Assembly (NCBI GenBank): GCA_018384465.1
Contig: JAHAYQ010000207.1
Location: 1-36,890, forward strand
Source: Myroides sp.
Lineage (GTDB): Bacteria; Bacteroidota; Bacteroidia; Flavobacteriales; Flavobacteriaceae
Length of the DNA stretch: 36,890 nt
Direction of reading: 5' to 3'
The notes under the pieces: model-generated
Database searches by the model: none
Seen by the model: only the letters and a program-made list of their open reading frames with translations
Told to the model about the DNA's origin: nothing
Shown here: positions 1,295-26,790 of the stretch, piece after piece
Layout: every line of letters starts with the position of its first letter
How positions within the stretch are numbered: the first letter of the stretch is position 1
Program-made: the position numbers and the translations under genes

Positions 1295-3367
1295 TTAATT
1301 CAATATCCCTGATTTAATTCCAACTCCACTTATCGATAATTGTTGTATAGCTCTACTTGCCGCAACATAAAACAATGATTTTTCTGTTTTAAGGATCTGC
1401 GATTTTTCAATTTGGGATAAGCTAGCATAATCAAAAGGTAATCTAGGGAATGTCCGGTCATTTACATCAACAAGAAAAACATGTTTAAACTCCAATCCTT
1501 TTAGTCCATGAAAAGTAGCAATTCTAATTCCTTCATTTGTAGAATTTAGAAGATGTTTGTCTACATAAGGAATTCCGTTCTGATGAAGATAATTTCTAAA
1601 ATCATTAACGCTATCTCTTGTACGTGCTGCTATTACTATTTCATTGTAATGTACGCCGTCTTCTAAAAGCGATACAAGTTCTTCTTTAACAGCTGCAAGT
1701 TCTTCTTCTTTGGATGAAAAAAGCTTATATACTGGTTTTGGTCCATGGAAAAGCGATAGATAACCAGCTTTAGATTCCTCCTCACCATCAAAATCATCAT
1801 ATTTTTCATCTAAGATGACTGACATGGCTAAATTCTTTATCTCTTCTGTAGTGCGGTAATTAATACGCAAACGCTTGCTTCTTTTTCCCCTTATATTGAT
1901 TCCAGCTTTCGAAAAATTAATTTTACGATCATAGATATTCTGCAATGGGTCACCTACCAAAAATAAATCATTTTCTCCTTCTGAAGTCAATGATCGAATG
2001 AAAGTAAGTTCAACATTTGAAAAATCTTGTAATTCATCTACTATAACGTGAGAAAAAATATTTTTCCCATTTTCTTTTAAATAATTGGAAACCATATTAT
2101 AGATCTCTTCTTTATAATAGAGATTACTAGCTGATTTCTTAGTTAAAAACAATTCGATAAGCTTCCAAATTTCTAATCGCTGTTTTCGAGAAATTGCTTT
2201 TCCTCTGCCTATACGGCTTGCTTTTAGATATTCGGAACTTGTGTGTACATTTTGAATTAACACAACTTCTTCGAATTCTTCTTTCAAAAAAGTATCATCA
2301 AAAGAAGCTAAATTCTCTTCTAATACTTCCTCCCAAATCTCGTCTGGTTTTTTCACGGCATTCATACCAAACACTTTATCCGTAGGTTGTCTTATGTTAA
2401 ATTCTTGTGATAATTGAAATGCTAAAGCATCAATATTTAGAATTTTAAATTGTTGTGGTGGTATTTCTAAATCACCAGCCAAAGCAGATAAGCTTTCACT
2501 TAATTCCTTTGTGAATGTGGTAAATAAAATTGGCAATTCTGATGTTTTTTGCTCTGCTAAATATTTTAATCTATGCAATGCAGCCACCGTTTTTCCAGTA
2601 CCAGCACCACCTGATATTTTAACAGCCCCTTTAAAGTCACCATTTACAACAGCAGATTGCGAAGGATGCAAATAATATTTCCATTTATGTAATGATCCAC
2701 GAAGAGCTTCATTCAGAATTTCATCATTTGTAAACTCAATAAATGAACGAGCATTGTTCTTACTACCTAATGCATCGTCAATCTGCTTACCCTGTAAAAT
2801 ATCTGTTTTCAAACTTTCAATGGAAGCACCATCAAGTAGGTAAAAAAGGTTTTCAAAAGCATCTACAGGTAGGTAAACTTCTAATTTTTCTAATTCAACA
2901 ATATCATTTACCTTCAATACCGATGGCATTAATACTTCTGGGACACCAATAGCTATCAAATCATCCTGTGTATAAACATTCATAAATAAAGATGTGTCCA
3001 GTCTAGGTGCTTGTGAAGGCTCGATGGTAACGGTTTCGTCTACACTGAATACTTGGTAGGCTTGAGTTTGCTCATTCCAATCAATTACCTTGTTTTTTGC
3101 CCAATCCATTGCCTCATCGTGATTGTCAACCCAAACCAATAAATACAATTCACCGGGTGTAACTTCTTTTAAAATAGCACGGTATTTTTGATCCACTCTT
3201 GCAGTACGCAGCGATTGATCTTTGAATGTACTAATTGATTCGAGATTAAGTGCCGAACTTTTAGAATTGGTTCTGAATTTACTTATAAACTCAGTTATCT
3301 TACTTTGCGTTCCTTTATTGATATTTAAGAATGCATCCCAAAATTTGTCGTAAATAAATAACTTCAT
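1295..3367 (-). CDS. UvrD/Rep-like superfamily 1 DNA helicase with RelE/ParE-like N-terminal domain
   Basis: Walker A 'GGAGTGKT', Walker B 'VIVDELQDF', motif III 'VGDPLQNIYD', 'INYRTTEEI', 'ATFHGLKGLEFKHVFLVD', 'LFYVAASRA'. N-terminal ~100 aa ('ALNLESI..FKDQSLRTARVDQKYRAILKE…YLLVWVDNHDEAMDWA') resembles a RelE/ParE toxin fold. ATGA 4-nt overlap with the upstream gene. Confidence 0.85.
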   Translation of the reverse strand: MKLFIYDKFWDAFLNINKGTQSKITEFISKFRTNSKSSALNLESISTFKDQSLRTARVDQKYRAILKEVTPGELYLLVWVDNHDEAMDWAKNKVIDWNEQTQAYQVFSVDETVTIEPSQAPRLDTSLFMNVYTQDDLIAIGVPEVLMPSVLKVNDIVELEKLEVYLPVDAFENLFYLLDGASIESLKTDILQGKQIDDALGSKNNARSFIEFTNDEILNEALRGSLHKWKYYLHPSQSAVVNGDFKGAVKISGGAGTGKTVAALHRLKYLAEQKTSELPILFTTFTKELSESLSALAGDLEIPPQQFKILNIDALAFQLSQEFNIRQPTDKVFGMNAVKKPDEIWEEVLEENLASFDDTFLKEEFEEVVLIQNVHTSSEYLKASRIGRGKAISRKQRLEIWKLIELFLTKKSASNLYYKEEIYNMVSNYLKENGKNIFSHVIVDELQDFSNVELTFIRSLTSEGENDLFLVGDPLQNIYDRKINFSKAGINIRGKRSKRLRINYRTTEEIKNLAMSVILDEKYDDFDGEEESKAGYLSLFHGPKPVYKLFSSKEEELAAVKEELVSLLEDGVHYNEIVIAARTRDSVNDFRNYLHQNGIPYVDKHLLNSTNEGIRIATFHGLKGLEFKHVFLVDVNDRTFPRLPFDYASLSQIEKSQILKTEKSLFYVAASRAIQQLSISGVGIKSGILN

Positions 3368-6300
3368 AATTTAATCGTATTAATTTCTTCGGGTTTATAA
3401 ATCGTAAATCCTGCCTCCTGTAATATTTTTTCTGCCTCCTGTGAGCTTGGATTTATCGCTATTTTGATACTTTGTAAAATAAAATCAGCATCTGCCAATA
3501 CATTTCCATCATCATCTACCCACGAATCCAAAAAGTCAGCGTTTTCTTGATGAATCAGGTCTTTTGTAATGGCCTGATCAATTAATGAATGAAGATACGA
3601 ATCATACATCTCTAACACTTCCGATTTCCATTCTGCTGAACTTTCATTTTCTATCTGTTCATTATTTAATGCTGCAACATCAGAAGACTGGAATACATTA
3701 AACAAGCTCCAATAAAATTGCCATTGTGCTTTGTCTATATATTCAAATGAAGTGTTATTTGCAAGATGAATAATTTGCTGCTTGCCCATATTCACCCAAA
3801 TCTTCCATTCACCAAAAGAATAGGTATAATTATACTGGACAGGAACCAACGCATTGAAATCTTTTACTCTATTTTCTCGGATATAACTATCTTGTGTCAG
3901 TTTCTTTGCAACAATCAGATCGAGCTGTTCCGGATTAAAAGATGGTTCTAAGAATTTATTCGTCCAAGAGCCTAAATAATAAAACCATGATTTATTCCAA
4001 ATGGAAATTGGATGTGTCAAAGCTAATAAAATCCGATCAACATTATTCGATGCCAAAGCATAGTTTACCCTGTCTTCGACATTGATCGTCTGCAATAACT
4101 TTGTGTAATGTGGTAAGAAATCGCCTTTATACTTTTGGGCAATTTCATCCAATGCTAATTTATCACCTTCCAATTGCTTTTGAAATAGATTTAAATCTTC
4201 CCAGGTCAATGTCCAAGTCGTAAATTCAGGTTGGTCAACAATAGCTTTTCTAATATTAATATCACGTTCAAAAACATTGTGTTCTTCTGAGGCGTGATAC
4301 TGATAACCGTCCAAATAAACCGCTACTTTTTTAATGCGATCTTGATACTCCTGACCTTGATAGCGGTAACTTCCACATACAATTAAAAAGTCTGTTCTCG
4401 TACTATAGGCAATCCCATCTTTTGGTCCCAAAACGACTTGAGGTCGTATCCAATATACCGCATCAATATCATTTTTATTGATTTTTAATTCGTAAAAAAC
4501 AGTACCGCTTTCTCTTTTCTCTATAAGTGAATACCCCTCTTGATTCTCTGCATAAACAGACAATAATTTGATAAAACGTTCTTCCAATTCAGATTCTTCG
4601 ATCTTTCCTGAATTGGTAATAGAGGTCAATCCGTGGTTATTCTTTATCCATTCTTCTGTTTTATCAACTATTTTAGCAAACCATTTTTCCGCACGCTCTC
4701 TGCTTAGGTCTTCGCGATTGTATTGATTTCCATAACTGTAAATACACTTATAACATCCATCATGCCCCTCCAATTGACAAGAACAATCTCGTATAGCCTC
4801 ATAGCCTCGTTGAAGTAACAAAGTAAATTCTTGATGGTCGAATAATTGTTCCAGATATCCAGTACCTCCTGGGATTGTATCGAATAACAAAAGAAATCGG
4901 TCAAATTTATCTGTATGCTGATTAAATTCCCGATATGACTGAATATGGATATGTCCAGGATTTCCTTTAAAATATTTCTTCAATCCAAGCTCCAATCCAG
5001 CTTGAAACATTCGAACATCTGTTTCACTATTAAATTCCTGAACAGGTAAAACAATTTTCAAAACCTCAGTTTTCATTTCTCTGAAAAAGTAAACTTCTTC
5101 AAAAACACCGATATTACTTGGGTCGTATTGAACATCACGATGCTTACAGTAACCATAGTGAAATTCCCTTGCTTCTCTAACCAAATGTGTAGCTGAAATC
5201 GACTTACCACAATGTTTACAGGTGACGAAACCTCTTGTTAATGCTTCAGTATCATTTATTTTAATTTTACGAGCGTCACTACCATCACTCCGTCCATAAT
5301 TTATGGAAGTAATCGTGGCACTTCTCACATATTCAATACCAAATGGAATATCCTTTAACACCCAAGCTCCTGCGGATGTATTGTTATCAAGCAACACATG
5401 ATCGATGATTTGATACTGTGTTCTATCTCGATCGTCATTAGAATCACTCAAAGTTGCCTTTGCGGCATTATTGAATGATTTAACATTTGTCATCTTCACA
5501 AAAGCATGCACATTTGAAGACGAAGCCCAAGATAAATCGCCACATTTCGGACAATTTCCCGTTTTTGCCAAAGCAGCCAATTCAATGTGGTCACATTTTG
5601 AACAGAATCTTTTCTTGTGATAATTTTCCTGATCAGCCCAATCGAATGTATTAACCCCAGAAATTTCAAATCGATAACCTTGCGTATAAAAAAAGTTTTC
5701 TGGAGCCAATTCCTTAATCGCCTGAGAAGCTGAACGTACTAACTCGAAATCTTTGTTTGGATGAAGATTCGTGCTTTCTTCAACAGGTGAACTTAATACA
5801 TGCGCATTTAGCCGAACACCCGTTTCTGGAAAAGCATAATTAGGCAACACACCTACATTGGTGAAATGTTCTAAAATATTACGTGCGGAAATTGACTTTT
5901 TGATGCCGTTTAGATTTCGCTTTTCTTTTACATATTCATCGTATAAAGGATCTCCTTTAGCTAGATTGAGAGTTTTTACCTCATCGTCAATATCCTTTTT
6001 ACGCTTCTCAACATCGAATATCTCTGCTTTTATTTGTATAAACACATCCAATAGTTCACTGTAAAAACTGCCCGATTGCAAAGCATTTTGTATTGCTGGG
6101 AATATGTTTTCCTTGATTCGAACATCATATTGTTTCAGAAAGTTAGTAACCAACAAAAGCGAATGATCGGATATAAATTTTGATAAGCGATTGATAAAAA
6201 AATCAGCAGCAGTCAAATCTTTACTTTGCAACTTGAGATCCCTAACAAAAGTAGGAATCGTATTTTCATTAGGATTCTGAGAAGTCCAACTATCAAAACA

Positions 6301-9300
6301 ATAAGCCGTAAAATGTCTTCTCAAAATATCCTTCGCTTCCAAGTAACAACCGGGCGTATTTACCTCTCCAATCATCATTTCTAACGGATCGGTAAAATAA
6401 TATAAGTCGTGATTTTGATTTTTCGCAAAGTTTACAATCACGGCCGATCCGGAACTACGACCAGCACGTCCTACACGCTGTAAGAAATTTGATGGTAAGG
6501 GCGGAATACTGTTATTATAAGCCGTATTCAAATTCCCAATATCAATCCCCATTTCCAAAGTACTAGTCGCTACCAAAGCGTTCACAGAATTGAATTTAGG
6601 TCTTGTCTTAAAATCGACTTCCAGACGTTCTCTTATACTTCTTTCCAACAAACCGGTGTGTTCTTTCGCAAAAACACGAGGTGAACGCGTACGGTTATAA
6701 ACGTCCTTATAATAATTATTTTTTGGTTGCGAGGTCAATTGGTAATGCCCAATACAACGATAGCTTACACAACTGCCATTAGCAATCACATCTTCATCAT
6801 CATAGGTATATTGGGTGTCTTCACAGACATCACAATTGTAAACTTTAATATTCTTATGAACCCAAATTGCTTCGGGTGAAATGCCGTAATTCAGTTGGTC
6901 TCCAGAGGTAGCACAATTCAATATACCTACCGATAAAAGTGCCTGCGTCCACTGTTCGAAAAATTCATTCACAAAATCAACTGTAACGGCTGCTTGCGGA
7001 AAACTTTTCTGAAAATACGAATGAAACCAATTGGATGTCCTTGCTCTAGTTGTGTCCAATAAATTATCTCTCGATTGTTGGTTGGTCAACAATTTCGGAA
7101 AACGTGCACGAGGACCAAATTTTGGATTGAGAAAATGCCGACCATCCTTTTGCCAGTTCAAGTCCCATAGACTTAATCTATCATTTCTAAATTTTGAAAG
7201 GTAAGGATGATCAATCGCACCTCTGTTTCGAGCTCGATGCAAAATAAGATTAGTTAAGCGAATCGTGTTTTCTTTATTTATGCTACCACTAACATCATTA
7301 GCTGCAATCCACTCAGATAGTTGATTCCATGTGTTTTCTAATTTTTCTTTATCAAAATAAACAGATGATGCACCAGTTTTTTCCAGCGTACGACCAATTT
7401 TTGAATTAAATCCAAATTCAGAATAGATTTCCCAACGTACCCGCTCATCAAATTCTTTCAAAAAATGAGGAGCGTAATTTCTACCGACCAAATAATCTTT
7501 TGGGGAAGATTTACCAATATAATCTTTAGGATAAAAACGATAGAAATAAGCAGGTAATGATTCTTTTCCAGATTCATCTGCATGCTGTTTCCAATAATTG
7601 ATAAAAGTATCTGCCAACTCATCTAATCGAATAGCATCGTTTTGTTGATTAATTACTTTTTGTACCGAACCTCTCAACGCAAAACGATAATTTCGACCTT
7701 CTACAAAACCAGCTTGATGTGCTGCATCTTGAACAGAATTGGTAAAGGCTAAAACTTTTCGTCCATTATCGCTCGATTTATCTAAATCGGTTGCCAAAGT
7801 TTGACTGATCGCAATAGAGCTCAAGGTCGGAATTTTAGTACCTACTATAGCTACCGTTCCTGATGAATTACAACAAGGACATATTTCTTCTATTTTATTT
7901 TCCTTTAGTTTTCTTACAGCTTGGATTGCCAAACCGTCCTCATTATCATCTATAATTTTTAGTGTAATTGGATTGATTTTGATGGAAAGATTATCATCCG
8001 GTTGGTAACCTGTTGCTTGAAAATCTTCTAACCTCAATTCATCTTTCGGCAATATGAAATAGACATTCTTATTTCTGGAAAAGTATTTTTCGTAAACTTC
8101 ATTAATGTCTTTTGTAAAAGCATCACTGTTTTCTAATTTTACACCCAACCAACCCGAGTTATTACATTCTCTACAATACCACGGCGGTAAAGCAGCTAAT
8201 TCTTGATTGGCATCTACCTGATCACGGAAAGAAAATTTCGCTTTTTCTTCCAATGTGTATTGTACACCGCTCAATTCTCGTATCCAAAATTGGATTTGCA
8301 AATACATAAAAGGTGAGCGGGGATTGTCAATATCCTTTGCTTTAGAAATCAATGCCAATAATGATTCTAAAACACGTTCTTTAGGATTGTACTGATGCTC
8401 AACATCCCATTGTGGTAATTTCCTATACGATTCATTGGTAATAGAAAGTTCACGGATGATGTCCGTTATGGTTTTGATTCCAGTTCCTTTGTTTATCGTC
8501 ACCACCAAATCACGAACAATTTTTAGATGCAAAAGACCTTGTGCCAATTGGTTTGCATCTTGCTGCCAGAACTCGATATGCTTTTGTATAAAAGCCTCAA
8601 AGCCGTCATCTTCCTGATAGGTCAACTCTTTTAGCCTATTGGGCAGAGGAATAAAATCGTTGAGCAATTCTTCCTCACCAAAAAATTGATGAGGTGAGAT
8701 TCTATTTTCTGTGATAATTGCATCGGTTCCGATGGACTCCCCGAATATTTTTGTCGCATAATCTGCCAGTAACTCTGGTGCTTCGACTCCTGTACCAATA
8801 GTCGCCGATGTACCTACAGCACATAATTGATTAGCAGGCAGAGCCAGCTTTAATTTTAATCGACGAATCAGATTGGCAACATCCGTACCTTGCGCACCAT
8901 CGTAGGTGTGCAACTCATCCAAAACCAAAAATTGAAACAAAGAAGTGTCGTTGAAATTATGTATCCATAAACGATGGAAATTATGCTTCATCAAAGCATA
9001 ATCCAACATCTTGAAATTGGTTAATAGAATATCTGGTGGTGCATCCAAAATACTATCTCGATGTTCGATAATATGATCAGCTCCCATTATTTTAGGGAAT
9101 TGTCCTTTGGGACCATTCCCTTCTCCAATGAAAAGTCCCGCTCTGATTTTGCCTTTCAACCGAGGATCTTCGTCTATCATTTCTGCCAAACGTTTTGCCT
9201 GATCGGTAGCCAAAGCATTCATCGGATAAAGGATAATGACTTTAATACCCGGACGATGTTGATGCTGAAAGCAATAATCCAACATCGGATAAAGAAAAGC

Positions 9301-9630
9301 CTCCGTTTTTCCCGAACCTGTTCCGGTAGTAACAATTGTTGCTTCAGGAGATTTATTCTTTGTGGATAGTCGTGTCCAGGCTTTTACTTGATGGTCATAA
9401 GGCGGCCATGTTGGCTTTATGGTAAGCGGAATGGCGTCAATCTCTTCTGTCTTTGCTTTTACAAAACGGAGCTTTAACGACACAAATGGCCCTTTGAACA
9501 TCCCTTGCGTGGGATGATCTATAAAATCATCAAACGCATTTGCTACCTGCTTTTTCCTAAAGGTAAAAGTAGCTTGCAGATACGATTTGATCGATTCCCG
9601 TATTTCTATGGCTTGCTGTAAACTTAGCAT
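3364..9630 (-). CDS. Very large DEAD/DEAH helicase with DUF1998 (MZB) domain, DrmA/DrmB- or DruE-like, with possible C-terminal nuclease-like domain
   Basis: 'TTGTGSGKTEAF' (Walker A), 'LVLDELHTYDGAQGTD' (DELH box), 'VGTSATIG', 'ATSTLEMGIDIG', 'QRVGRAGRSSGSA'. Cys cluster 'CSCQLEGHDGCYKCIYSYGNQYNRE' typical of DUF1998, plus several CxxC motifs. C-terminal 'TDFLIV…KKVAVYLDGYQYHA…ERDINIRKA'. Confidence 0.85.
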   Translation of the reverse strand: MLSLQQAIEIRESIKSYLQATFTFRKKQVANAFDDFIDHPTQGMFKGPFVSLKLRFVKAKTEEIDAIPLTIKPTWPPYDHQVKAWTRLSTKNKSPEATIVTTGTGSGKTEAFLYPMLDYCFQHQHRPGIKVIILYPMNALATDQAKRLAEMIDEDPRLKGKIRAGLFIGEGNGPKGQFPKIMGADHIIEHRDSILDAPPDILLTNFKMLDYALMKHNFHRLWIHNFNDTSLFQFLVLDELHTYDGAQGTDVANLIRRLKLKLALPANQLCAVGTSATIGTGVEAPELLADYATKIFGESIGTDAIITENRISPHQFFGEEELLNDFIPLPNRLKELTYQEDDGFEAFIQKHIEFWQQDANQLAQGLLHLKIVRDLVVTINKGTGIKTITDIIRELSITNESYRKLPQWDVEHQYNPKERVLESLLALISKAKDIDNPRSPFMYLQIQFWIRELSGVQYTLEEKAKFSFRDQVDANQELAALPPWYCRECNNSGWLGVKLENSDAFTKDINEVYEKYFSRNKNVYFILPKDELRLEDFQATGYQPDDNLSIKINPITLKIIDDNEDGLAIQAVRKLKENKIEEICPCCNSSGTVAIVGTKIPTLSSIAISQTLATDLDKSSDNGRKVLAFTNSVQDAAHQAGFVEGRNYRFALRGSVQKVINQQNDAIRLDELADTFINYWKQHADESGKESLPAYFYRFYPKDYIGKSSPKDYLVGRNYAPHFLKEFDERVRWEIYSEFGFNSKIGRTLEKTGASSVYFDKEKLENTWNQLSEWIAANDVSGSINKENTIRLTNLILHRARNRGAIDHPYLSKFRNDRLSLWDLNWQKDGRHFLNPKFGPRARFPKLLTNQQSRDNLLDTTRARTSNWFHSYFQKSFPQAAVTVDFVNEFFEQWTQALLSVGILNCATSGDQLNYGISPEAIWVHKNIKVYNCDVCEDTQYTYDDEDVIANGSCVSYRCIGHYQLTSQPKNNYYKDVYNRTRSPRVFAKEHTGLLERSIRERLEVDFKTRPKFNSVNALVATSTLEMGIDIGNLNTAYNNSIPPLPSNFLQRVGRAGRSSGSAVIVNFAKNQNHDLYYFTDPLEMMIGEVNTPGCYLEAKDILRRHFTAYCFDSWTSQNPNENTIPTFVRDLKLQSKDLTAADFFINRLSKFISDHSLLLVTNFLKQYDVRIKENIFPAIQNALQSGSFYSELLDVFIQIKAEIFDVEKRKKDIDDEVKTLNLAKGDPLYDEYVKEKRNLNGIKKSISARNILEHFTNVGVLPNYAFPETGVRLNAHVLSSPVEESTNLHPNKDFELVRSASQAIKELAPENFFYTQGYRFEISGVNTFDWADQENYHKKRFCSKCDHIELAALAKTGNCPKCGDLSWASSSNVHAFVKMTNVKSFNNAAKATLSDSNDDRDRTQYQIIDHVLLDNNTSAGAWVLKDIPFGIEYVRSATITSINYGRSDGSDARKIKINDTEALTRGFVTCKHCGKSISATHLVREAREFHYGYCKHRDVQYDPSNIGVFEEVYFFREMKTEVLKIVLPVQEFNSETDVRMFQAGLELGLKKYFKGNPGHIHIQSYREFNQHTDKFDRFLLLFDTIPGGTGYLEQLFDHQEFTLLLQRGYEAIRDCSCQLEGHDGCYKCIYSYGNQYNREDLSRERAEKWFAKIVDKTEEWIKNNHGLTSITNSGKIEESELEERFIKLLSVYAENQEGYSLIEKRESGTVFYELKINKNDIDAVYWIRPQVVLGPKDGIAYSTRTDFLIVCGSYRYQGQEYQDRIKKVAVYLDGYQYHASEEHNVFERDINIRKAIVDQPEFTTWTLTWEDLNLFQKQLEGDKLALDEIAQKYKGDFLPHYTKLLQTINVEDRVNYALASNNVDRILLALTHPISIWNKSWFYYLGSWTNKFLEPSFNPEQLDLIVAKKLTQDSYIRENRVKDFNALVPVQYNYTYSFGEWKIWVNMGKQQIIHLANNTSFEYIDKAQWQFYWSLFNVFQSSDVAALNNEQIENESSAEWKSEVLEMYDSYLHSLIDQAITKDLIHQENADFLDSWVDDDGNVLADADFILQSIKIAINPSSQEAEKILQEAGFTIYKPEEINTIKL

Positions 9631-9648: not shown

Positions 9649-12600
9649 TTATTTAAACTTCTCCTCAAAAAACGCCCACGCTCGTTTATAATCTTCTACA
9701 CGATCTTGTTTGGTAAACGGTGCGTGGTAAGTGATTTTTTCGCCTTGGTATAGTTCAGACTTGGTGATGGTATGCTCATAGGTTTCACCAGCGGGCATAT
9801 CTTTTATGGTATTCCATTCTGGGCGATCCAAACCGACACCTACCAAACCTTTGCTGCAAGTAAACACAATATTTCCTTTGGTATCGTACCAAGTGTCATC
9901 TTCGTTTTGTTGCAATACGGGAAACTGAATATTGTACATCAATATCAATTCTTCCAACGTTAGGTTGAGAGCCATTGCCGTGATCACATCAATCTCTACC
10001 AATGCCATGCGACGTTCAAAATAATTACGCAAAGGTGAATACCATGACCATTCTTTGGTTAAAGAAGAAAAAGGTTTTAAACGCTCGTCTTGCAACGACC
10101 AAGTTTCCTGCGTAAATGCGTCCTGATAACTTTCCTCCCAAAGCGGTGCATAATATTTGTTTAAGCTATTGAGTTGTAATGTACGTACGAACAATGCCGA
10201 TTTGTATTTTTCTGAAATGCCAAGCGGGATTGTATTTAGTATTCCTTGTTTGATATTAGCACTGCCGATACTCTTCACATAAAAATCTGAAACGAGAGAT
10301 GATAATATACCAGTGAATTCGGTCAATTCTGATAACTTCTTAAAAACTATACTATTTAGATTTAAACAACTCACTTTCGGAGGGAACATACATCCTTGTA
10401 ATGTTCTTTCTCCAGTTAATGAAACCATACGCGGAATTATCGCTTTAAAGGAACTTACCCAAGTTCCTTTATTATTTCGCAATCGTCGATTAAATTTCTC
10501 TGAGTTAGCATCTAATGGAACAAAATTCGTTCTTGGCACAAAAGATTGGTCAATTTTAGTTAAATCAATTACATCATAATCAGAATTTAAAATTGATTTT
10601 CTCCAAGGATTTTTATATAAAGGATTTACCACATAAAAGTGTGGCCCGCTAACAATTAATTCAAATTCGTCTAACTGAGCCCATTTTGTTTCTCTACGTA
10701 AAAGTCCATCTTTTTCTGATTGTGCTTGGTCAAAACCGATCACGTAATCATAATCATAATTCGCTAATCTGCTTGGAAACATTCCAATTTTCTCTATCGC
10801 TTGTATAATTTCCTGAGCGTGAATGCTTACTAATTTCGCACCTTCCCAATCTGAGGTATTTTCAAAAGTTTTGGCTAAGATTTTTAATACATTTTCGTTT
10901 ATGCTTACAATACGATGCTGGTGTGCTTGTATATTCCACTCCATCTTTCCCGTATTCTCATTTTTCACTTTAAATCCGCCAACTTGACCTAAACCGTTAT
11001 GCACAAAACTACCATCAATAGTTGCTGGATGAAACAAATTGGATATAGATTGAAAATCAACTTCATTTTTTTTACCAGAATAAATATGAATACCGTAAAT
11101 AGTTTCGTGATGAACATCAGCGAAAAGCACCATTTCATTTTTAAACTGAAAATGAAATTTCAAGCGTTGGTATATTTCCTTACGCAAAGCATAACCATTA
11201 GGGTCGTCGTACACCCCTTCAGGATGTATCAAGCCTAAGTATCCTTTTTCGGCAATCCAATGCAAACCGTTTTCCAGTACACATTTGTACAAATTATTCC
11301 TTTGTCCAACCAGTAAAGGGTAATTCTGGACAGCACCTAAGAACTCTTTTGTAGTATTTGCCTCTACTGTTTCATTAATATAAATATCAGCTAAAGAAGT
11401 ATTCTCTTCCAGATGTTTTTCTGCAAAAGTTTTTACCTCAGGTGCAGTAAAATTCTTTACAAAAACCTCAGGATAAAATTCAGAAACCACGCCTGTTTCA
11501 TCAAAAGTGATGTTTACCCATGGCGGATTCCCTACAGCAACATCAAAACCATTCTGCTCTCTAAATACCTCTATAAACTCCAGCTCATAATGGAAAAATT
11601 TATATTGCTCGGCATAAGTTTGCACCAAATCAGCACGTTCGTTTGTAAACAAAGAGGCAGTTGATTGCTTCAATGCTTCTGCCAATTGCTTCTCTAACTG
11701 TTTCTTGTCTTTTCGATAATCACGAACAGTTTCTTCTTCAAGCGTTTCTTGCTTCGTAATTTCCGTTAAATCAATATTCAGCAATTGCTCTAAATCATCG
11801 TACCACTCATCTCTTGTGGGCAAATCTTGTGCATTGCGTACATCCCAAAACCATAGACTGCACCAATAGTCCATCATCAGTTTCAGTTTGTAATAAGGTG
11901 CATTGGGTTTTAGGCGTTCTTGGGCAAACTGTTGTTTTTGCTCAAAAGTATAAGACTGAAAATCGAGTTGCATTATCGCATTCGGGTTTCCAAAATACTG
12001 GGGATTGGTTTCAGTAATCAATCCAATATTTTTCTGTATTTCGTAATGCGCCAAAAGCAAAGCATCAATGGCTTTAGAAATTCGTTGTACACGTTGAAAT
12101 TCATCATTTCGCAAAGGGGCACAAAAAGCCTTACGCCATTCGGTAATGCGTGCAGCCTTTTCCGGAAAAGCATCTTTCAATAATTTGATACTTCCCGAAG
12201 AGGCCATTCCGGCATCGGGTAATATAAAATGATAAATTTCGTCGTCTCTACGTAAAACGCCTTTTTTACCAAATTGCAAATGTTTAGGTGCTTGTGTCCA
12301 CCATTCTTTTTTAACAAAGCCTTTTACACCTTTTGGTTCAAAGGAGAAATCTTTGTGTTTGAAAACTTTTAACCACGAACCGACTACAGCATTACCTACG
12401 CCCAAACGATAACCAAAGAAAGGCGTTTGCATATCTTTATGGATAACATTGAGCCATAAAGACAATTTCCCTAATTCGATCGCCGTAGGATTTAAATCGA
12501 CACCATACACATTGTTTAAAGCGATGTAAGCTTTAATTTTCTGAATTTCTTCTTGGTATTTATTTGGATCTACTTGCTGTTTCAGTTCTTGCTGTCTATA

Positions 12601-14430
12601 CGTTAAATACGCTTGTGCCAACTGATTGATCACTTCATTATGAAAAGCAGCGGCACCCATTGCTGGTTCTAAAATTTTGAGTTGTAACAAATCTAATGCT
12701 TGTATTTCTCCCTTGTCCAATCGCTCCAGAATTGGTTTCAAGGTGTATTTAACCGTTGTTTGCGTCAGCACTTCGGGTGTATAATACGAAGCAGATTTTT
12801 GACGATCACGCCCGCTTAGGCGATAGATAAAAGTACCTTTGGGGATCACTTTTAGTTCTTCTGAACCATCAGCTTTTTCAGAATAAAAAACTTCTTTCGG
12901 ATCAAAGTCATCTAAACGATGACGTGGTACCAAATAAGACCCATCGGTATTGACCACTTTTGCAGAAGATTCATTGCTTTTGCGCTTGCGATGCACTTCG
13001 ATATAATCGGTTTCTGCCAAAAAACCACGAAATGCCAACAAGCTTTCATAAACCGATCCCAATTGGTTAATGCCTAAATTGGCGTAGGATATACGACCTC
13101 GACTTTTTTTGTTCTGTTTTTTGGATAGCGACAATTCGCAAATAACATCTTGCCAAACTTGATTTCGAATTTTCACCCTGTTTAGATAATGCAGCAGGCT
13201 ACTATCAAACATCGGCGAATCTAAGTGTCGGATTTTAAAACTTTTATTTGATCCTTCGTTTTCATGGTAACCTCTATTTAACAAATCGAATAATTGAAAC
13301 AAAGACTGATGAAAGAAATAGCCGTTTAGACTTGATTCCGTGATTAAGGGCACTTGCTCCAAATCGCGCAACATCTCTAAAGAATAACCACGTTCGTAAA
13401 CTTCGTCATTGGAAGGCAAAATATCCAAATCTTCTCGGGACTCGGCATAAAAAAGAAATAAAAGTCGATAGACCATATTCAGGCAATCGTCTTTCAATTT
13501 TGTTGCGTCAATGTCAGCAGGTTGTACGCCTTGCGTTTCCAAATCTTTTACGGCTTCGTTCGCCAAACTTTCTACTGCATGGATAACGCCTTCTTTCAAA
13601 TCTTTGGTTACTTCGTAAGCAGCTTTATGCGAATCTTCATCCAACTGATCCATCAAGACCATTTCGGCAGTAGGTGCCAATAAATCTTTCCCTAACAAGA
13701 GATAGAATATGCTGTAATAATCTTTGGCAATCGCCGCATCGTCAAACAATGCTTCTAAATCCAATTGCAAATACGAACCACGGAACCATTTTTCGGCTTC
13801 CAATAAAAAATATTGGTTACCGGCACAAAGCAAAACATAATTCGGACGACGTTGTTCGGGTAATAAAAACAATTCGTTTACCGCCTGATTAATAATCATA
13901 GGCGATATACTCACATCATCGCTTACCGAAAAAATATCAGTCCATTGAGAGCGGTGGTATTTCTGTTCTTTGGTGGTTTTCTCATCACCATCTTGAGAAC
14001 TGGTATAGCTTTGTTCAAAAAGTCCGTCAGGTTCTTCCTCATCTTTGGTTTTGATCATGGCGTGCATTTCCATTACCATCAGATGTGGCTGATCTCCTCG
14101 ATACAAAATATGACGAATAGGTAAAACAGATTTATCGTTGATAGGAAACAAGTCATGATATTGCATATGTTCAGCATCATAACCTAATGCACGCAATACT
14201 TTGCTATGAAAATCGTGCGAAAGATTGATTTTATCTTTTACACGCAAATGATTTTCTATAAAGCGATGTTTTAATTTAAAGTATTCAGGTTTTAACTGAT
14301 TTATTTTTTGATTGATGTCTTTAACAGCATCTGTGCTATGACCCGATTTTTCGATTACTTTTTTCCCAAAGTTTTCATCGAAATAATTAGATGCAAAAAA
14401 ATCGCCAATATTATGTAGAAAATGAATCAT
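9649..14430 (-). CDS. Large class I N6-adenine DNA methyltransferase (Eco57I/PglX/DrmMI-like)
   Basis: SAM motif 'ILEPAMGAAAFHNEVINQLAQAYL', catalytic 'FDVAVGNPPWVN', 'NVYGVDLNPTAIELGKLSLW', 1593 aa. Between two helicase genes with short intergenic gaps. Confidence 0.85.
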   Translation of the reverse strand: MIHFLHNIGDFFASNYFDENFGKKVIEKSGHSTDAVKDINQKINQLKPEYFKLKHRFIENHLRVKDKINLSHDFHSKVLRALGYDAEHMQYHDLFPINDKSVLPIRHILYRGDQPHLMVMEMHAMIKTKDEEEPDGLFEQSYTSSQDGDEKTTKEQKYHRSQWTDIFSVSDDVSISPMIINQAVNELFLLPEQRRPNYVLLCAGNQYFLLEAEKWFRGSYLQLDLEALFDDAAIAKDYYSIFYLLLGKDLLAPTAEMVLMDQLDEDSHKAAYEVTKDLKEGVIHAVESLANEAVKDLETQGVQPADIDATKLKDDCLNMVYRLLFLFYAESREDLDILPSNDEVYERGYSLEMLRDLEQVPLITESSLNGYFFHQSLFQLFDLLNRGYHENEGSNKSFKIRHLDSPMFDSSLLHYLNRVKIRNQVWQDVICELSLSKKQNKKSRGRISYANLGINQLGSVYESLLAFRGFLAETDYIEVHRKRKSNESSAKVVNTDGSYLVPRHRLDDFDPKEVFYSEKADGSEELKVIPKGTFIYRLSGRDRQKSASYYTPEVLTQTTVKYTLKPILERLDKGEIQALDLLQLKILEPAMGAAAFHNEVINQLAQAYLTYRQQELKQQVDPNKYQEEIQKIKAYIALNNVYGVDLNPTAIELGKLSLWLNVIHKDMQTPFFGYRLGVGNAVVGSWLKVFKHKDFSFEPKGVKGFVKKEWWTQAPKHLQFGKKGVLRRDDEIYHFILPDAGMASSGSIKLLKDAFPEKAARITEWRKAFCAPLRNDEFQRVQRISKAIDALLLAHYEIQKNIGLITETNPQYFGNPNAIMQLDFQSYTFEQKQQFAQERLKPNAPYYKLKLMMDYWCSLWFWDVRNAQDLPTRDEWYDDLEQLLNIDLTEITKQETLEEETVRDYRKDKKQLEKQLAEALKQSTASLFTNERADLVQTYAEQYKFFHYELEFIEVFREQNGFDVAVGNPPWVNITFDETGVVSEFYPEVFVKNFTAPEVKTFAEKHLEENTSLADIYINETVEANTTKEFLGAVQNYPLLVGQRNNLYKCVLENGLHWIAEKGYLGLIHPEGVYDDPNGYALRKEIYQRLKFHFQFKNEMVLFADVHHETIYGIHIYSGKKNEVDFQSISNLFHPATIDGSFVHNGLGQVGGFKVKNENTGKMEWNIQAHQHRIVSINENVLKILAKTFENTSDWEGAKLVSIHAQEIIQAIEKIGMFPSRLANYDYDYVIGFDQAQSEKDGLLRRETKWAQLDEFELIVSGPHFYVVNPLYKNPWRKSILNSDYDVIDLTKIDQSFVPRTNFVPLDANSEKFNRRLRNNKGTWVSSFKAIIPRMVSLTGERTLQGCMFPPKVSCLNLNSIVFKKLSELTEFTGILSSLVSDFYVKSIGSANIKQGILNTIPLGISEKYKSALFVRTLQLNSLNKYYAPLWEESYQDAFTQETWSLQDERLKPFSSLTKEWSWYSPLRNYFERRMALVEIDVITAMALNLTLEELILMYNIQFPVLQQNEDDTWYDTKGNIVFTCSKGLVGVGLDRPEWNTIKDMPAGETYEHTITKSELYQGEKITYHAPFTKQDRVEDYKRAWAFFEEKFK

Positions 14431-14440: not shown

Positions 14441-17326
14441 CTATTTATTGTAAAATACAGCTACTACTTTCAGATACGGATTGCCGTTGAGACTAGTTAA
14501 GTCCTTGAAATATTGACTTGAATTATTTAAAATTGTCTCTATTTCATATTCTTTGTCCTGCATTCTTTTCTTAACAAAACCAGTGATGCTTTTATCAGCA
14601 AATTCTAGTTCCATTTGTTGCTGTTTACTTTGGTGCCAATTCTTTAATTTCTCTTCGTACACTGCCAGTTTCTTTTCCATTTCAAATTGCAATTTTTGTT
14701 GTTCCTGATCCATGTGAAGCTGGTGTGCAAAATCAATCGCATCGGGTAAGATTTCCTGTAACTCTTCGATATCTTCGGTTGGAATATCCAAAGTATAGAG
14801 ATCGTCTTTAAGGTTGTATTGTACCATAAAATCCTCAAAAGGTAAAGGTCTTTCTTTTAAACCACCGTTGATATTCATGGGTACCACAAAGAAATCAGAC
14901 AAGATCGATTGTCCTAAATTATTTGCAACTATACCTTGAATCAGAAAAAAAGCTGTATCTGTAGGTAATCTATCCAATTTTGTTACCAAGGCAACGTCTT
15001 TATCAACCGAGGCTTCCAGTTGTGTCATGAGATAGCGAACAACAGGATGCAGTTCATACAAAATCTGAAATTTTGCCCATTCGCCCTTTTTCTTTCGAGC
15101 ATCGGTAATGGACTTTTGTACGTCATCTTTATCCAAAGAAAGCTGATAAACATCACCTAACTTATCAGGTTTTGCTTCTGCTGGCAGGTCATACAAAATA
15201 CGATTGAGCTCTTTCGTTTGTTTAACTTCCAATAGATCTCCCTCAAATTGAGCTTCGTCATTTTTTAAATATTGATCGGTCTTCAATTGTTCTATCAAAG
15301 CTTGATAATAAGCTTTCTCGTTCTGGAACAAAGAAACTTGCGCAGCAATAGGGTTTTCAATCTGTAATTTAGGCGTAGCATCATCAAATAAGGAATCAAA
15401 TATATCATCATCCAATTCATTTTGACTCGAGTGCTCCAATAAATCGACATTGTTAGATGCTAATGCTTTGGTTACCAAATCCTCTTCGGCACTTGCTTCA
15501 TACAACTTATAGACCGAAGCCGCATCTCCCAAAGACTCATACACTGTTTCTTCTTTTTCTTTCAGCTTATTTACGATGTGTAAATCATCCTTCAAACCTT
15601 CCAAATCAGAGGTGGCAATCATATAATGGATGTATGGCGTTTTGGTTTGACCATAACGATCGATACGTCCATTTCGTTGCTCCAACGTAATCAATGACCA
15701 CGGAATATCGTAGTTGAACATGTGATTACAATAATAATGAAGGTTGACACCTTGTGCACCTGCATCAGAAGTTAATAAAACACGATACTCTGAATCTTCT
15801 TTTCCAAAATCCTCAATAATACGTTGCTGTTCCATATCGGTCAACGATCCATGAAAATCAGCAATTACTTTGTCATCTAAATCGAAATCTTGCTGCAGTT
15901 TTCTCTTTAGTGCCTTCAAGGTTTCTATACGCTCGGCGAATACGACGATACGAAAATCTTTTTTTCGTCCATTCCACTTCAAACGAATCAATTCGTTTCT
16001 GAAAGCAGTGTATTTTGCATCTTGACGCAAATCGATAATCGTTAATAACTGTTGCTCTAAATTTTCTAAAGTTGCTAAGTTTTGCTCTACAACATCTTCA
16101 CGATTAGTAATGTCTTCCAGCTTTTTTATCCTATTCTGGATCGAACTTAAAGCTGCTTCTGGTGAAGACATATAGGATTTGAACAAACCAATAGCAAATA
16201 ATAAATCACGTTTTGTTTTATGTTTTAACTTTCTGCCAAACAAATCTTCCGTGACGTCTTCATCGTTTAATCCTGCTAAAGCAGTAAATTTTATCTTTTG
16301 CTGAATTTCAAGAAAGGCATTCTCAGCATTAGTTAATTCGGCATGAATAGAAACGATCTTTCTTTCTTGAAAATTAGAACGGACATTTTCATCGTCAATA
16401 TCATTTTTGAATCGGCGCACATAGTAGGGCAATATATCCTCTTGGCTATACTGTTGCTCATCCTTAATTGCTAACGGTTCAATCATATTAATGAGATTGG
16501 CGAAATTTTGCTTTTTACCATTATGTGGCGTAGCTGAAGTAAGCACCAAAGATTCACACTTGGTACTTAGTAACTGTGCCAAACTTCCTCTCAAAGAATT
16601 AGAATTGGACACAGTATGACATTCATCGATTACGATGATATCCCATTTTGTTTTTTCTATATAGTGTTGAAACTTCGCATTGTTTTTCAGTGTATCTATT
16701 GAAACAATGGTTTTGTCGTAATAATCGAACGGATTTTTATTGGCAGGTAATTCAGATTTTATTTTTGAAATCCCTTCCGAGTCTAAACGAACCAATGGAA
16801 TGGCAAAACGATTCCAAATCTCCTGTTGGAATTGAGCAAGAATAGATTTTAAAGCCAAAACTAAAATACGCTTTCCTTTTCCGCGCTTAATCATTTCAGC
16901 TAAGAAAATACCCACTTCAACAGTTTTACCTAAACCTACTCCATCTGCAATCAATATACGAGGTCGTGGCAGTTCAAAAGCTTTTAAAGTTGGCTCTAAC
17001 TGATATTCGGCTAAATTGAAAGCAGCTTTTTGAGCCACGGTAATTTGTTTGCTATAAATTGAGGAATTTCGAATCTGGTTTTCGACAAATAGTTTGGTCT
17101 TACGATAACCATAATCTACATCTGCAACCAATAGTGTTTTTTTGGGATCTAAAACCCGAATGTCTTTATCAATGTTGGTATCAAAAATATAGCGTTTGCT
17201 TTTGACCAATTCAGAGATTCCTTCAACCTTTAGAATCCATTTACCGTTATTTTCAACGGCATCATTAATGATAAAGTCTTCATCACGATTGGTTATTCGT
17301 TGTCCAGGCGTAAAATTCATATTCAT
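14441..17326 (-). CDS. SNF2-family helicase/ATPase (DrmD/HepA-like)
   Basis: 'ILIADGVGLGKTVEVGIFLAEM' (Walker A), 'IIVIDECHTVSN' (DECH), 'LVLTSATPHNGKKQNF', 'DAGAQGVNLHYYCNHMFNYDIPWSLITLEQRNGRIDRYGQ'. Confidence 0.9.
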   Translation of the reverse strand: MNMNFTPGQRITNRDEDFIINDAVENNGKWILKVEGISELVKSKRYIFDTNIDKDIRVLDPKKTLLVADVDYGYRKTKLFVENQIRNSSIYSKQITVAQKAAFNLAEYQLEPTLKAFELPRPRILIADGVGLGKTVEVGIFLAEMIKRGKGKRILVLALKSILAQFQQEIWNRFAIPLVRLDSEGISKIKSELPANKNPFDYYDKTIVSIDTLKNNAKFQHYIEKTKWDIIVIDECHTVSNSNSLRGSLAQLLSTKCESLVLTSATPHNGKKQNFANLINMIEPLAIKDEQQYSQEDILPYYVRRFKNDIDDENVRSNFQERKIVSIHAELTNAENAFLEIQQKIKFTALAGLNDEDVTEDLFGRKLKHKTKRDLLFAIGLFKSYMSSPEAALSSIQNRIKKLEDITNREDVVEQNLATLENLEQQLLTIIDLRQDAKYTAFRNELIRLKWNGRKKDFRIVVFAERIETLKALKRKLQQDFDLDDKVIADFHGSLTDMEQQRIIEDFGKEDSEYRVLLTSDAGAQGVNLHYYCNHMFNYDIPWSLITLEQRNGRIDRYGQTKTPYIHYMIATSDLEGLKDDLHIVNKLKEKEETVYESLGDAASVYKLYEASAEEDLVTKALASNNVDLLEHSSQNELDDDIFDSLFDDATPKLQIENPIAAQVSLFQNEKAYYQALIEQLKTDQYLKNDEAQFEGDLLEVKQTKELNRILYDLPAEAKPDKLGDVYQLSLDKDDVQKSITDARKKKGEWAKFQILYELHPVVRYLMTQLEASVDKDVALVTKLDRLPTDTAFFLIQGIVANNLGQSILSDFFVVPMNINGGLKERPLPFEDFMVQYNLKDDLYTLDIPTEDIEELQEILPDAIDFAHQLHMDQEQQKLQFEMEKKLAVYEEKLKNWHQSKQQQMELEFADKSITGFVKKRMQDKEYEIETILNNSSQYFKDLTSLNGNPYLKVVAVFYNK

Positions 17327-17771: not shown

Positions 17772-18617
17772 ATGGAAATCGTATTGAGTAAAATCTTATC
17801 AAAAATTCATCGCCAAGAAGAAAAGTTATCTTCACAACCGATGCTAATCGCCGATGAAGCATACCAAATGACTTTGTTCCTAAATGAGATGCTTTGTTCA
17901 TTAAAATCAACGGTTTTGCAAAATAGGTTTTATGATGAAGAGCATGAAATTGATTTCTTCAAAAACATTAAACCGCAGGTCTTGGGTAAACTTATTTACT
18001 ATAATAAAGTATTCCGGATTGAAACCAATTGTCCTGTGAGTAACGGTAAACTACATCAGATCTATTTTCAGAAGCTTTTAAAAAATCTTAAATCTGATTA
18101 TTCAGAGAATATCTGTAAAGAAGATTTTTACAGGTATTATCGTACAGGCAGGAAAGATAAGGATAATATTTACTTTCGACTCGGTCAAGTCAATTTTCAC
18201 GATGGACTAAAAAGTGGTGTATTCGAAATCGATTTAAGCTTTTCCACCTACTATGATAATAAGACCGCCTATATAATTGCTAACGAGTTATTATACAAAT
18301 ATATTCTAGAGAAGACAAGTCCTGAGGGAAATTCAGACTTTACATTAATAAGTGGAAACGCTAATAAGGATATTGCTTGGTCGAATTCACAAAATGCACT
18401 TATTGAACTAATTTATGCTCTTTATGCATCATGTTCTGTTTCACATGGAAAGATAGGGATAAAAAAGCTAGCTCTAATTTTTCAAATAGTATTTCAAACT
18501 CCATTAAACGATGTCCATCATGCATTTCACAGAATGAAAACAAGAGCTGGCTCACGAACTGCTTTTTTAGATCAGCTTAAATCCTCACTTGAAGAATATA
18601 TGGATAGGGATCTTTAA
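17772..18617 (+). CDS. RteC family protein (ICE regulatory protein)
   Basis: RteC-like signature 'HEIDFFKNIKPQVLGKLIYYNKVFRIETNCP…FYRYYRTGRKDKDNIYFRLG'; located at the start of an ICE module. Confidence 0.85.
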   Translation: MEIVLSKILSKIHRQEEKLSSQPMLIADEAYQMTLFLNEMLCSLKSTVLQNRFYDEEHEIDFFKNIKPQVLGKLIYYNKVFRIETNCPVSNGKLHQIYFQKLLKNLKSDYSENICKEDFYRYYRTGRKDKDNIYFRLGQVNFHDGLKSGVFEIDLSFSTYYDNKTAYIIANELLYKYILEKTSPEGNSDFTLISGNANKDIAWSNSQNALIELIYALYASCSVSHGKIGIKKLALIFQIVFQTPLNDVHHAFHRMKTRAGSRTAFLDQLKSSLEEYMDRDL

Positions 18618-18639
18618 TTAAAAAGAAGCTTCTAAAATC

Positions 18640-18667
18640 AAAGCAGTACCAAACTAGTACTGCTTTT
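18640..18667 (+). terminator. Intrinsic terminator after rteC
   Basis: AAAGCAGTAC…GTACTGCTTTTT hairpin with T-tract, 22 nt after the rteC stop. Confidence 0.75.
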
Positions 18668-18866
18668 TCTATCCCCATATGTACCAATTGGTAAACCCTC
18701 CTAATCATATCTACAAAACAGATAAAACGAATTCAACCACCTGTTTTTCATAACATTTACAAGGAATAAAAAAAGCAAAAAAATAGTAAAACCAATTGGC
18801 GAGACTTGGCGGACAAACTCTTCCTCCTTTAGGAATTTTGTAGAAGTAATATTAAAGAATTGTACT

Positions 18867-19172
18867 ATGAATATTGACAGACTAGAATTTTTAGCATGGA
18901 TGGAGCGCCTAACGGAACGACTTAACATACTTGGCGACAATATTGACGACTTACAAAAGAAACGTAACAACATAGACGGTGAAGAATTATTGGATAATCA
19001 GGATTTGTTACAAATGCTAAAAATCAGCACCCGCTCGTTGCAACGATATCGCTCTTCTGGGAAACTCCCCTATTATACGATAAGTGGAAAACTTTATTAT
19101 AAACTATCGGACGTACATCAGTTTATACGAGACAGTTTTAACCAACCCTCAAACAGACAAAAAGCCATTTAG
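18867..19172 (+). CDS. Helix-turn-helix (MerR/excisionase-like) protein
   Basis: 'ELLDNQDLLQMLKISTRSLQRYRSSGKLPYYTISGKLYYKLSDVHQFI' is the HTH_17/excisionase-like pattern common in Bacteroidetes ICEs. Confidence 0.85.
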   Translation: MNIDRLEFLAWMERLTERLNILGDNIDDLQKKRNNIDGEELLDNQDLLQMLKISTRSLQRYRSSGKLPYYTISGKLYYKLSDVHQFIRDSFNQPSNRQKAI

Positions 19173-19259
19173 TGCCAAGTACGACCTCTGAAAACCACTT
19201 TAGGTATTACAGAATACACTTGTCATACTTTCGCCTGTAAACTTTAAATTTTTAAGATT

Positions 19260-20723
19260 ATGAGTGAAGAAACAACAAATAAACAGGAATTACCCGAACA
19301 GCTTTCGGATATTTTATTGGTATTGGATAAAGAGAAAATGAAAATTCAAGCTGTTAAGAGCATCGACGAAAACGGAAATATGAAAACTGTAGATCCTACG
19401 AAAAAGAATCAAAATCAGTTTTTACGTGTAGACAAACACGGTGATTTCTTTTCCAATTTTTTCTCCAATTTCTTCAGCCAATTGAAGAACCCAACGAATT
19501 TTTCCTTTTTCAAAGTTCCTGAACCTATTGCTCTTGACAAAGCAAAAGAATTGCAGAAACAGGTTGATAACCCAACTCCTGATGGCGAAAAAGTGATGAA
19601 AGAACATGAATTAAAGACCAGTGGATTAGATAATAGTAAACAAGAAAATAAAAATGATATGGCAACAACACAAACAACAGCAACGGCAAACGAATACCGT
19701 TACAAACCAGAGCAGATTGATTGGGACACCATGAAAAATCTTGGATTAAGTAAGGAATACCTTGAAAAAAGAAACTTGCTAGATCCTTTGTTACGTGGTT
19801 ATAAAACCAACGAATTGATACCAATAGGTGTTAACCTTGGAAGCTCTATTCTTCGCACAGATGCCCGCTTGTCTTTACAGCAAAACGAAGAAGGAAATGT
19901 AGTCGTGGCAATTCATGGTATTAAAAAAGAACCAAATCTACACTTTGAATTTTTCGGACATAAGTTTACAGATGAGGATAAGAAAAACTTACTCGAAACT
20001 GGCAATATGGGACGAGTAGTTAATCTGACCAATTCTAAAACAGGTGAACAAATGCCCTCCATTATCAGTATTGACAGGTTGACCAATGATGTAATTGCTT
20101 TACGAACTGATTTTATTAAGATACCAGATGAGATTAAAGGTGTTAAACTGAACGAAGAGCAAAAACAGACCTTAAAGGAAGGCAAACCACTCCAATTAGA
20201 TGGTATGATTTCAGCAAAAGGAACGGAGTTTTCAGCAACTGTACAGTACAATGCAGACAAACGCTATGTAGAATTTCAGTTTGACAGAAGCAACACGAAT
20301 AAACAAACGCAAAGCAACGGACAGCGCAATCAACAGAACCAATCGCAGGAAGCTCCAAAAACCTTTCGAGATAAAGAATTGGATAATGAGCAACATCAAA
20401 AATTCAAAGATGGTCAAACGGTTTATCTAAGCGGATTGGTGGATAAGAAAGGTAAAGAATACAATGGTTATATCACTTTTAATAAAGAAACCAATAAAAC
20501 AGACTTCTCTTTCCAAAATCCGAATAAGCTCAAAGAACAAGCGAAACCTACCGAAGCCTATAAAACGCAGACTGCGGTCAATTCCGAGGGTAAAACCAAC
20601 GAAGCGACCAAGAACATCAAAGAGCCTTTGAAATCGGGACAAAAAAATCCAGATAGCAAGAAACAGCAGGAAGAACAGGAAAAACCTAAAGCACCTGCTA
20701 AATCCAAAGGCAGAAAAATGTAA
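19260..20723 (+). CDS. DUF3945 domain-containing protein
   Basis: Repeated modules 'LNEEQKQTLKEGKPLQLDGMISAKGTEFSATVQYNADKRYVEFQF' and 'LDNEQHQKFKDGQTVYLSGLVDKKGKEYNGYITFNKETNKTDFSF'; precedes the topoisomerase gene as in Bacteroidetes ICEs. Confidence 0.8.
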   Translation: MSEETTNKQELPEQLSDILLVLDKEKMKIQAVKSIDENGNMKTVDPTKKNQNQFLRVDKHGDFFSNFFSNFFSQLKNPTNFSFFKVPEPIALDKAKELQKQVDNPTPDGEKVMKEHELKTSGLDNSKQENKNDMATTQTTATANEYRYKPEQIDWDTMKNLGLSKEYLEKRNLLDPLLRGYKTNELIPIGVNLGSSILRTDARLSLQQNEEGNVVVAIHGIKKEPNLHFEFFGHKFTDEDKKNLLETGNMGRVVNLTNSKTGEQMPSIISIDRLTNDVIALRTDFIKIPDEIKGVKLNEEQKQTLKEGKPLQLDGMISAKGTEFSATVQYNADKRYVEFQFDRSNTNKQTQSNGQRNQQNQSQEAPKTFRDKELDNEQHQKFKDGQTVYLSGLVDKKGKEYNGYITFNKETNKTDFSFQNPNKLKEQAKPTEAYKTQTAVNSEGKTNEATKNIKEPLKSGQKNPDSKKQQEEQEKPKAPAKSKGRKM

Positions 20724-20740
20724 TCGATAAAAAAAAGAGT

Positions 20741-22828: not shown

Positions 22829-23715
22829 TGGAAAATAAGCCTATTATTAGTCCGATGAAAATCAAGAATCTGATTTATACCATACGAGATAAACAAGTGA
22901 TATTGGATAGTGATATTGCAAAAATTTACCAAGTGGAAACAAAGGTTTTCAATCAAGCCGTAAAACGAAATGTTGAACGTTTTCCTGAAAATTTTCGTTT
23001 TCAATTGACACAAGACGAGTTTGATACGATAAACTTGAGGTCACAATTTGTGACCTCAAGTTTTAATTACGGTGGTAGACGCTATTTGCCTTATGTGTTT
23101 ACTGAACAGGGAATTGCAATGTTGAGTGCGGTACTTCGATCCGATGTCGCAGTAAAAGTCAGTATCGAAATTATGAATGCTTTTGTAGAAATGCGAAAAT
23201 TACTGATCAGCAATGCTTCGTTATTTCATCGTTTAAACAAAATTGAGTTGAAGCAATTGGAATCCGATCAAAAGTTTGAAGAAATCTTTAAGGCTTTAGA
23301 AAGCGATAAACTTCACAGCGATAAAGGTGTTTTTTATGATGGTCAAATTTTCGATGCCTATACTTTTGTGTCCGATATTATCCGAAGTGCCAAAAGCTCC
23401 ATTATCTTAATTGATAATTATGTGGATGATACCGTACTGACTTTATTAGGAAAACGGAATGATAATGTAACCGCAACTATCTACACCAAAAACATCAGCA
23501 ATCAATTAAAGTTGGATTTACAACGGTACAACAGTCAATATCCTCAAATTGAAATTGAGGTTTTTTCCGATGCTCACGACCGTTTTATAATCATAGATCA
23601 AACAGAACTCTACCATATCGGTGCATCGCTCAAAGATTTAGGTAAAAAATGGTTTGCCTTTTCGAGAATGGATATTGAAGTTGGTAGGATGCTTGAAATA
23701 TTAAATAAACAATAA
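22828..23715 (+). CDS. ORF6N domain protein with C-terminal phospholipase D-like region
   Basis: 'IRDKQVILDSDIAKIYQVETKVFNQAVKRNVERFPENFRFQLT' (ORF6N); C-terminal 'SSIILIDNYVDDTVL…SDAHDRFIIIDQTELYHIGASLKDLGKKWFAFSRM' (PLD-like HxRxxxxD). 1-nt overlap with topB. Confidence 0.85.
   Translation: MENKPIISPMKIKNLIYTIRDKQVILDSDIAKIYQVETKVFNQAVKRNVERFPENFRFQLTQDEFDTINLRSQFVTSSFNYGGRRYLPYVFTEQGIAMLSAVLRSDVAVKVSIEIMNAFVEMRKLLISNASLFHRLNKIELKQLESDQKFEEIFKALESDKLHSDKGVFYDGQIFDAYTFVSDIIRSAKSSIILIDNYVDDTVLTLLGKRNDNVTATIYTKNISNQLKLDLQRYNSQYPQIEIEVFSDAHDRFIIIDQTELYHIGASLKDLGKKWFAFSRMDIEVGRMLEILNKQ
23032..23062. repeat. Perfect 15-bp inverted repeat inside the ORF6N coding sequence
   Basis: AACTTGAGGTCACAA-t-TTGTGACCTCAAGTT, encoding NLRSQFVTSS. 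Confidence 0.85.
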
Positions 23716-23740
23716 ACCCTCCGAATTCGGAGGGTTTATT
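23711..23740 (+). terminator. Perfect 30-nt palindrome, probable (bidirectional) terminator
   Basis: AATAAACCCTCCGAATTCGGAGGGTTTATT between the converging ORF6N and ABC ATPase genes. Confidence 0.75.
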
Positions 23741-23761
23741 GTCTGGATGTTAAAAATAATA

Positions 23762-26787: not shown

Positions 26788-26790
26788 GGA

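Follow-up and report, generated by a model that had tools for sequence, protein, structure and literature searches.

ARMADA type II is a four-gene defense system whose gene order was defined in a 2025 preprint (PMC12458937). According to the accessible parts of that preprint, the system defends in a non-abortive manner and needs all four of its genes, and its ArmC protein carries a predicted active Vsr nuclease, behind which inactivated EEP and Vsr domains are often found; the mutants described there affect helicase and methylase motifs only. A 2026 review counts ARMADA among the systems whose mechanism of restriction is unknown (PMC12904381), and the way in which it destroys phage DNA is the question on which an ArmC nuclease bears. 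The helicase DruE, which cuts long DNA, carries fused PLD nuclease domains (PMC13192584), and REase_MTES_1575 was defined as a novel REase with the Vsr fold that forms part of giant SF1-helicase proteins (PMC3710099).

Our analysis of a 36,890-nucleotide stretch of a Myroides sp. contig (JAHAYQ010000207.1, positions 1 to 36,890, hereafter the window) showed that one open frame on the minus strand (3364-9630) encodes a protein of 2088 aa, ArmC, which PADLOC and Pfam place among the YprA/DruE-like SF2 helicases. Its best PADLOC match was DruE1 (3.9e-98) and its Pfam domains were DEAD, Helicase_C and MZB, with a Walker A motif (GSGKT) at residue 105 and VLDELH at residue 236. The four cysteines of the DUF1998/MZB cluster, CSCQLEGHDGCYKCIYSYG (residues 1616-1634; 4729-4785, minus strand), were invariant in alignment A1, and six CxxC pairs are present in addition to it. 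C-terminal of the cluster we counted 454 residues, in agreement with the 400 or more given in an earlier note on this DNA. This extension comprises a Vsr/MTES_1575-type PD-(D/E)XK nuclease-like domain of ~140 residues (residues ~1676-1815; 4186-4605), a middle region (residues ~1816-1980; 3691-4185) and a terminal domain (residues ~1981-2088; 3367-3690), all on the minus strand. The nuclease-like domain was assigned from conservation, profile comparison, AlphaFold modeling and PMC12458937. We consider it likely, with a probability of about 0.78, that it constitutes a metal-dependent nuclease domain of the Vsr/REase_MTES_1575 branch of the PD-(D/E)XK superfamily at the C terminus of ArmC in an ARMADA II operon, and that ArmC acts as a helicase-nuclease.

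ArmC homologues were taken from species genomes, Bacteroidota genomes, plasmids and viral contigs, and the resulting 26-sequence alignment spans Bacteroidota, Pseudomonadota, Cyanobacteriota, Actinomycetota and viral-contig records. Nine residues of the Vsr-type domain (S1680, E1683, D1747, D1774, G1775, H1779, D1790, R1794 and W1810) did not vary among the 26 sequences, whose identity to the window ArmC goes as low as 24%; the nine include the D, H and R positions that the earlier note had singled out. The motif reported there (RTDFLIVCG...LTWEDL), which in translation reads RTDF...VYLDGYQYH...ERDINIR...LTWEDL, occupies residues 1745-1813 (4192-4398, minus strand) and lies inside the proposed range of 4190-4480, but that range misses an N-terminal helix with an invariant Glu. 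Because this invariant S-x-x-E helix (S1680 and E1683; 4582-4593) falls outside it, we redrew the domain as 4186-4605. The features of Vsr and MTES_1575, namely the Glu helix, the Asp strand, the DGxxxH strand and the D/R helix, are all conserved in ArmC. Like Vsr-type enzymes, ArmC does not have the canonical ExK lysine. In a comparison with ArmC of Chryseobacterium, identity was 85-89% in the two parts of the helicase motor, 76% in the Vsr-type domain and 53% in the terminal domain; dN/dS was mostly saturated in this comparison, so amino acid identity is the sole usable measure.

We infer from these sequences that the Vsr-type domain is catalytically active on DNA and, by analogy with the related DruE, that ArmC would be a helicase-nuclease effector with this domain as the cutter. 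In such a scheme, ArmA, ArmB (through methylation) and ArmD would take part in the discrimination between self and invader or in preparing DNA, while ArmC would load on single-stranded parts of phage DNA and move 3′ to 5′, driven by ATP. The fused Vsr-type domain would then nick or cut DNA at a putative metal/catalytic site made up of E1683, D1747, D1774 and H1779, and the terminal domain probably plays a structural, DNA-holding or regulatory role. These four residues make the predicted nuclease testable by simple point mutation, whereas the mutants in the accessible parts of PMC12458937 concern other motifs.

The main rival explanation, which we regard as unlikely, holds that the Vsr fold has been kept without being the effector, serving instead in DNA binding or as an assembly signal while phage DNA is destroyed by host enzymes or other Arm proteins. 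Non-catalytic use of the fold does exist in the family, since Druantia I/II DruE and many ArmC ends carry predicted inactivated Vsr domains (PMC12458937, accessible parts). In line with this rival, a distant YprA protein from Hydrogenimonas has a degenerate copy only, and the ARMADA mutants so far reported, as far as the accessible text goes, hit helicase or methylase motifs. Against it, none of the 26 ArmC sequences departs from the acidic, His and Arg residues; DGxxxH is, by contrast, lacking from the terminal copy that these proteins carry.

This terminal copy reads G.VLADADF...KIAI...AGF in the window, and an alignment of 23 sequences gave the consensus G.V.A.AEL.W...K.AI....AGW, likewise without DGxxxH. 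Its profile matched Vsr and MTES_1575 at only 10-13%, the Vsr match being weak (10%) and in register; because the signal is this low, the Vsr identity of the domain rests on the in-register alignment together with the accessible parts of PMC12458937. To judge from its sequence, a degenerate Vsr-like domain that would fit the inactivated Vsr of that preprint is plausible. The last ~90 residues of ArmC were modeled mostly at pLDDT 78-96. The middle region, where the ARMADA preprint places its "inactivated EEP" domain, is faster evolving and mostly below pLDDT 50. It is conceivable, but rather doubtful, that the intact Vsr-type domain and its degenerate copy form a catalytic/regulatory pair in which ArmC would cut only once released by the degenerate half or by the state of methylation that ArmB sets; the helicase-nuclease would then be self-contained and carry its own lock. 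It should be noted that the armC frame ends early in two Bacteroidota genomes (L043/L055 and L008): in one, what follows the Vsr-type domain is encoded by a separate ORF that overlaps the first, and in the other, a stop near residue 2004 leaves the terminal domain missing.

Returning to the predicted intact nuclease, we found no nuclease match when the window ArmC alone, including its C terminus, was searched with Pfam or when its C terminus alone was searched with NCBIfam. Across the 26 ArmC members, six matched the Pfam family PF18741 (REase_MTES_1575; best E value of 5.9e-4). Profiles of MTES_1575, Vsr and DUF559 were built from members extracted from Bacteroidota genomes and compared by hhalign. 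ArmC aligned with REase_MTES_1575 at 97% probability (E value of 5e-11, 72 columns), with the D, DG, YH and W columns in register. The matches to Vsr (28%) and DUF559 (18%) were weak, yet in register on D and DG/HG, and the MTES_1575, Vsr and DUF559 profiles matched each other at 94-97%. As controls, 20 column-shuffled ArmC profiles gave probabilities of at most 2.1%, and 15 natural segments from ArmC and ArmD at most 2.6%. Collectively, the invariant columns and the profile match measured against these controls place the motif beyond chance. A profile search of PDB sequences returned R.SwaI alone, at an E value of 0.22 that is not meaningful. In E. coli Vsr, the counterparts of ArmC E1683, D1747 and H1779 would be E25, D51 and H69; the profile alignment displays the D and H correspondences only, not that of E1683. 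The suggestion of the earlier note that the helicase carries its own nuclease, in the form of a Vsr/DUF559-type PD-(D/E)XK-like domain, is thus upheld as a prediction by the MTES_1575 profile, the PF18741 matches and the invariant residues.

The AlphaFold2 model of the domain, built from an 18-sequence alignment, had a mean pLDDT of 83, with most of the core above 90. It runs from a helix through three strands, a strand at RTDF/D1747, a strand before D1774/H1779, a helix (D1790/R1794) and a strand to a final helix, and this predicted order agrees with a PD-(D/E)XK core plus extra strands. PD-(D/E)XK cores show low similarity to one another. A Foldseek search of the model against PDB and BFVD (viral) at an E value of ≤0.001 returned no PD-(D/E)XK structure, and a second model of the C-terminal end gave nothing significant against PDB. 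The Vsr-like core foreseen in the earlier note was therefore recovered in the order of its secondary structure elements but not as a structural match to a nuclease, and because Foldseek found no solved nuclease, the fold assignment is based on the profile match, the motif and the secondary structure order. The Foldseek result and the missing Pfam match for the window sequence would favor a superficial resemblance on an unrelated fold. We consider this very improbable in view of the 97% profile match with its motif residues in register and controls of ≤2.6%, the matching secondary structure order of the model, and the compact Vsr/DUF559-like motif at the same place in deeper relatives. In addition, the same domain was assigned independently in PMC12458937, as far as its accessible parts go.

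The four genes lie in the order armA-armB-armC-armD on the same strand. By profile matches, armA (14441-17326, minus strand) encodes an SNF2/RapA-type, DrmD/BrxHII-like helicase of 961 aa, armB (9649-14430, minus strand) a PglX/DrmMI-like adenine methyltransferase of 1593 aa with NPPW at residue 968, and armD (1295-3367, minus strand) a GajB-like UvrD helicase of 690 aa. Residues 1-100 of ArmD (3068-3367) follow a RelE/ParE-like pattern, RxDxxYRAI...HDxAxxWA, in an alignment of 14 sequences, with no RelE match in Pfam. Judged by sequence, the order of BrxHII-like helicase, PglX-like methylase, YprA helicase and GajB-like helicase is that of a complete ARMADA type II operon, and the helicase and methylase motifs mutated in the accessible parts of PMC12458937 are intact at near-identical positions. 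The setting assumed in the earlier note, a drmC-less DISARM in which the helicase acquired a nuclease as a replacement, draws on the ArmA and ArmB matches to DrmD and DrmMI profiles and on the DUF1998 common to DrmB, but can practically be dismissed, since drmC is not part of ARMADA, helicase core and DUF1998 form one fused 2088-aa protein nearest DruE rather than separate DrmA and DrmB, a GajB-like helicase comes next and the four-gene order matches ARMADA type II. Druantia was rejected as well: only the helicase is DruE-like, its neighbors are DrmD-, DrmMI- and GajB-like, and neither DruH nor type I/II Dru partners are present. ArmB also gave a full-length match (1630 bits; 9649-14430, minus strand) to the PADLOC model of Type IIG restriction enzyme-methyltransferases, so in PADLOC 2.0.0 output an ARMADA II locus would probably appear as type IIG restriction with DruE/DrmD as strays.

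Beyond the operon, conjugative-transposon-type genes at 17772-34022 of the window, comprising two RteC genes, DUF4099/DUF3945, topoisomerase III, DUF1896 and a gene for an 1801-aa N6-methylase/SNF2 protein, surround further defense-like genes and suggest that the ARMADA II operon rides on an integrative element. Within this region are an ABC-three-component/Lamassu-like set (LmuB-like ATPase, MC5 and CTD9 proteins; 23762-26787, minus strand) and an ORF6N protein matching the PADLOC candidate PDC-S05 (1.6e-133; 22828-23715, plus strand).

The best full-length plasmid relatives of ArmC mostly share the ARMADA operon, and the identical four-gene order occurs on plasmids of Pseudanabaena, Gemmobacter, Streptomyces and Microvirga. 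In a Cylindrospermopsis curvispora plasmid (NZ_CP060823.1; L034 7983-21607), the ARMADA II-type genes are rotated, armC-armD preceding armA-armB, an exception to the reported strict gene order. On a Tsukamurella tyrosinosolvens plasmid (NZ_LR134452.1; L029 1-20158, L155 451-10005), an armA/drmD-like and an armB/drmMI-like gene occur once each. Immediately upstream of them are a gene related to helicases, at the position of drmA, and DrmB (PADLOC 4.5e-66); after them come armC in split form, armD and a further UvrD helicase. The arrangement looks like a single composite operon of DISARM and ARMADA with one helicase-methylase pair in common. Three IMG/VR contigs filed as viral (L063, L064 and L065) encode ArmC-type helicases, followed by an armD-type gene in L063 and L065, which agrees with ARMADA being carried by phage-like elements. 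Among distant plasmid YprA proteins, those of Thermus and Nostoc bear the compact Vsr/DUF559-like motif, that of Hydrogenimonas (L152) only a degenerate motif, and L154 none of this kind, a series that parallels the active, inactivated and replaced nucleases reported in the accessible parts of PMC12458937.

Compared with known nucleases, ArmC shares with REase_MTES_1575 (PF18741) the D, DGxxYH, RD...R and W motif and the placement behind a helicase, but differs in its SF2 YprA helicase, in additional strands before the core and in the lack of a Pfam match for the window sequence. With Vsr (PF03852) and DUF559 (PF04480) it shares the Asp strand and the DG/HGxxxH strand; unlike these, it scores low in direct profile comparison and is not stand-alone. 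DruE of Druantia III resembles ArmC as a YprA defense helicase-nuclease whose C terminus bears fused nuclease domains, of which one is intact and the other degenerate, but these domains belong to the PLD family and DruE partners with DruH (PMC13192584). The ARMADA II system of E. coli NCTC 12900, as described in the accessible parts of PMC12458937, has the same four-gene order, a YprA helicase with DUF1998, a C-terminal predicted active Vsr domain and NPPW and Walker motifs at near-identical positions, and its degenerate Vsr-like end has a plausible counterpart in the window ArmC. The window ArmC differs in belonging to a Bacteroidota genome and in adjoining conjugative-transposon-type genes, and it is ~29% identical to an E. 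coli plasmid ArmC-type protein. The ArmC nuclease has already been predicted in print, in the accessible parts of PMC12458937, and our finding confirms this prediction in a new, divergent Bacteroidota member.
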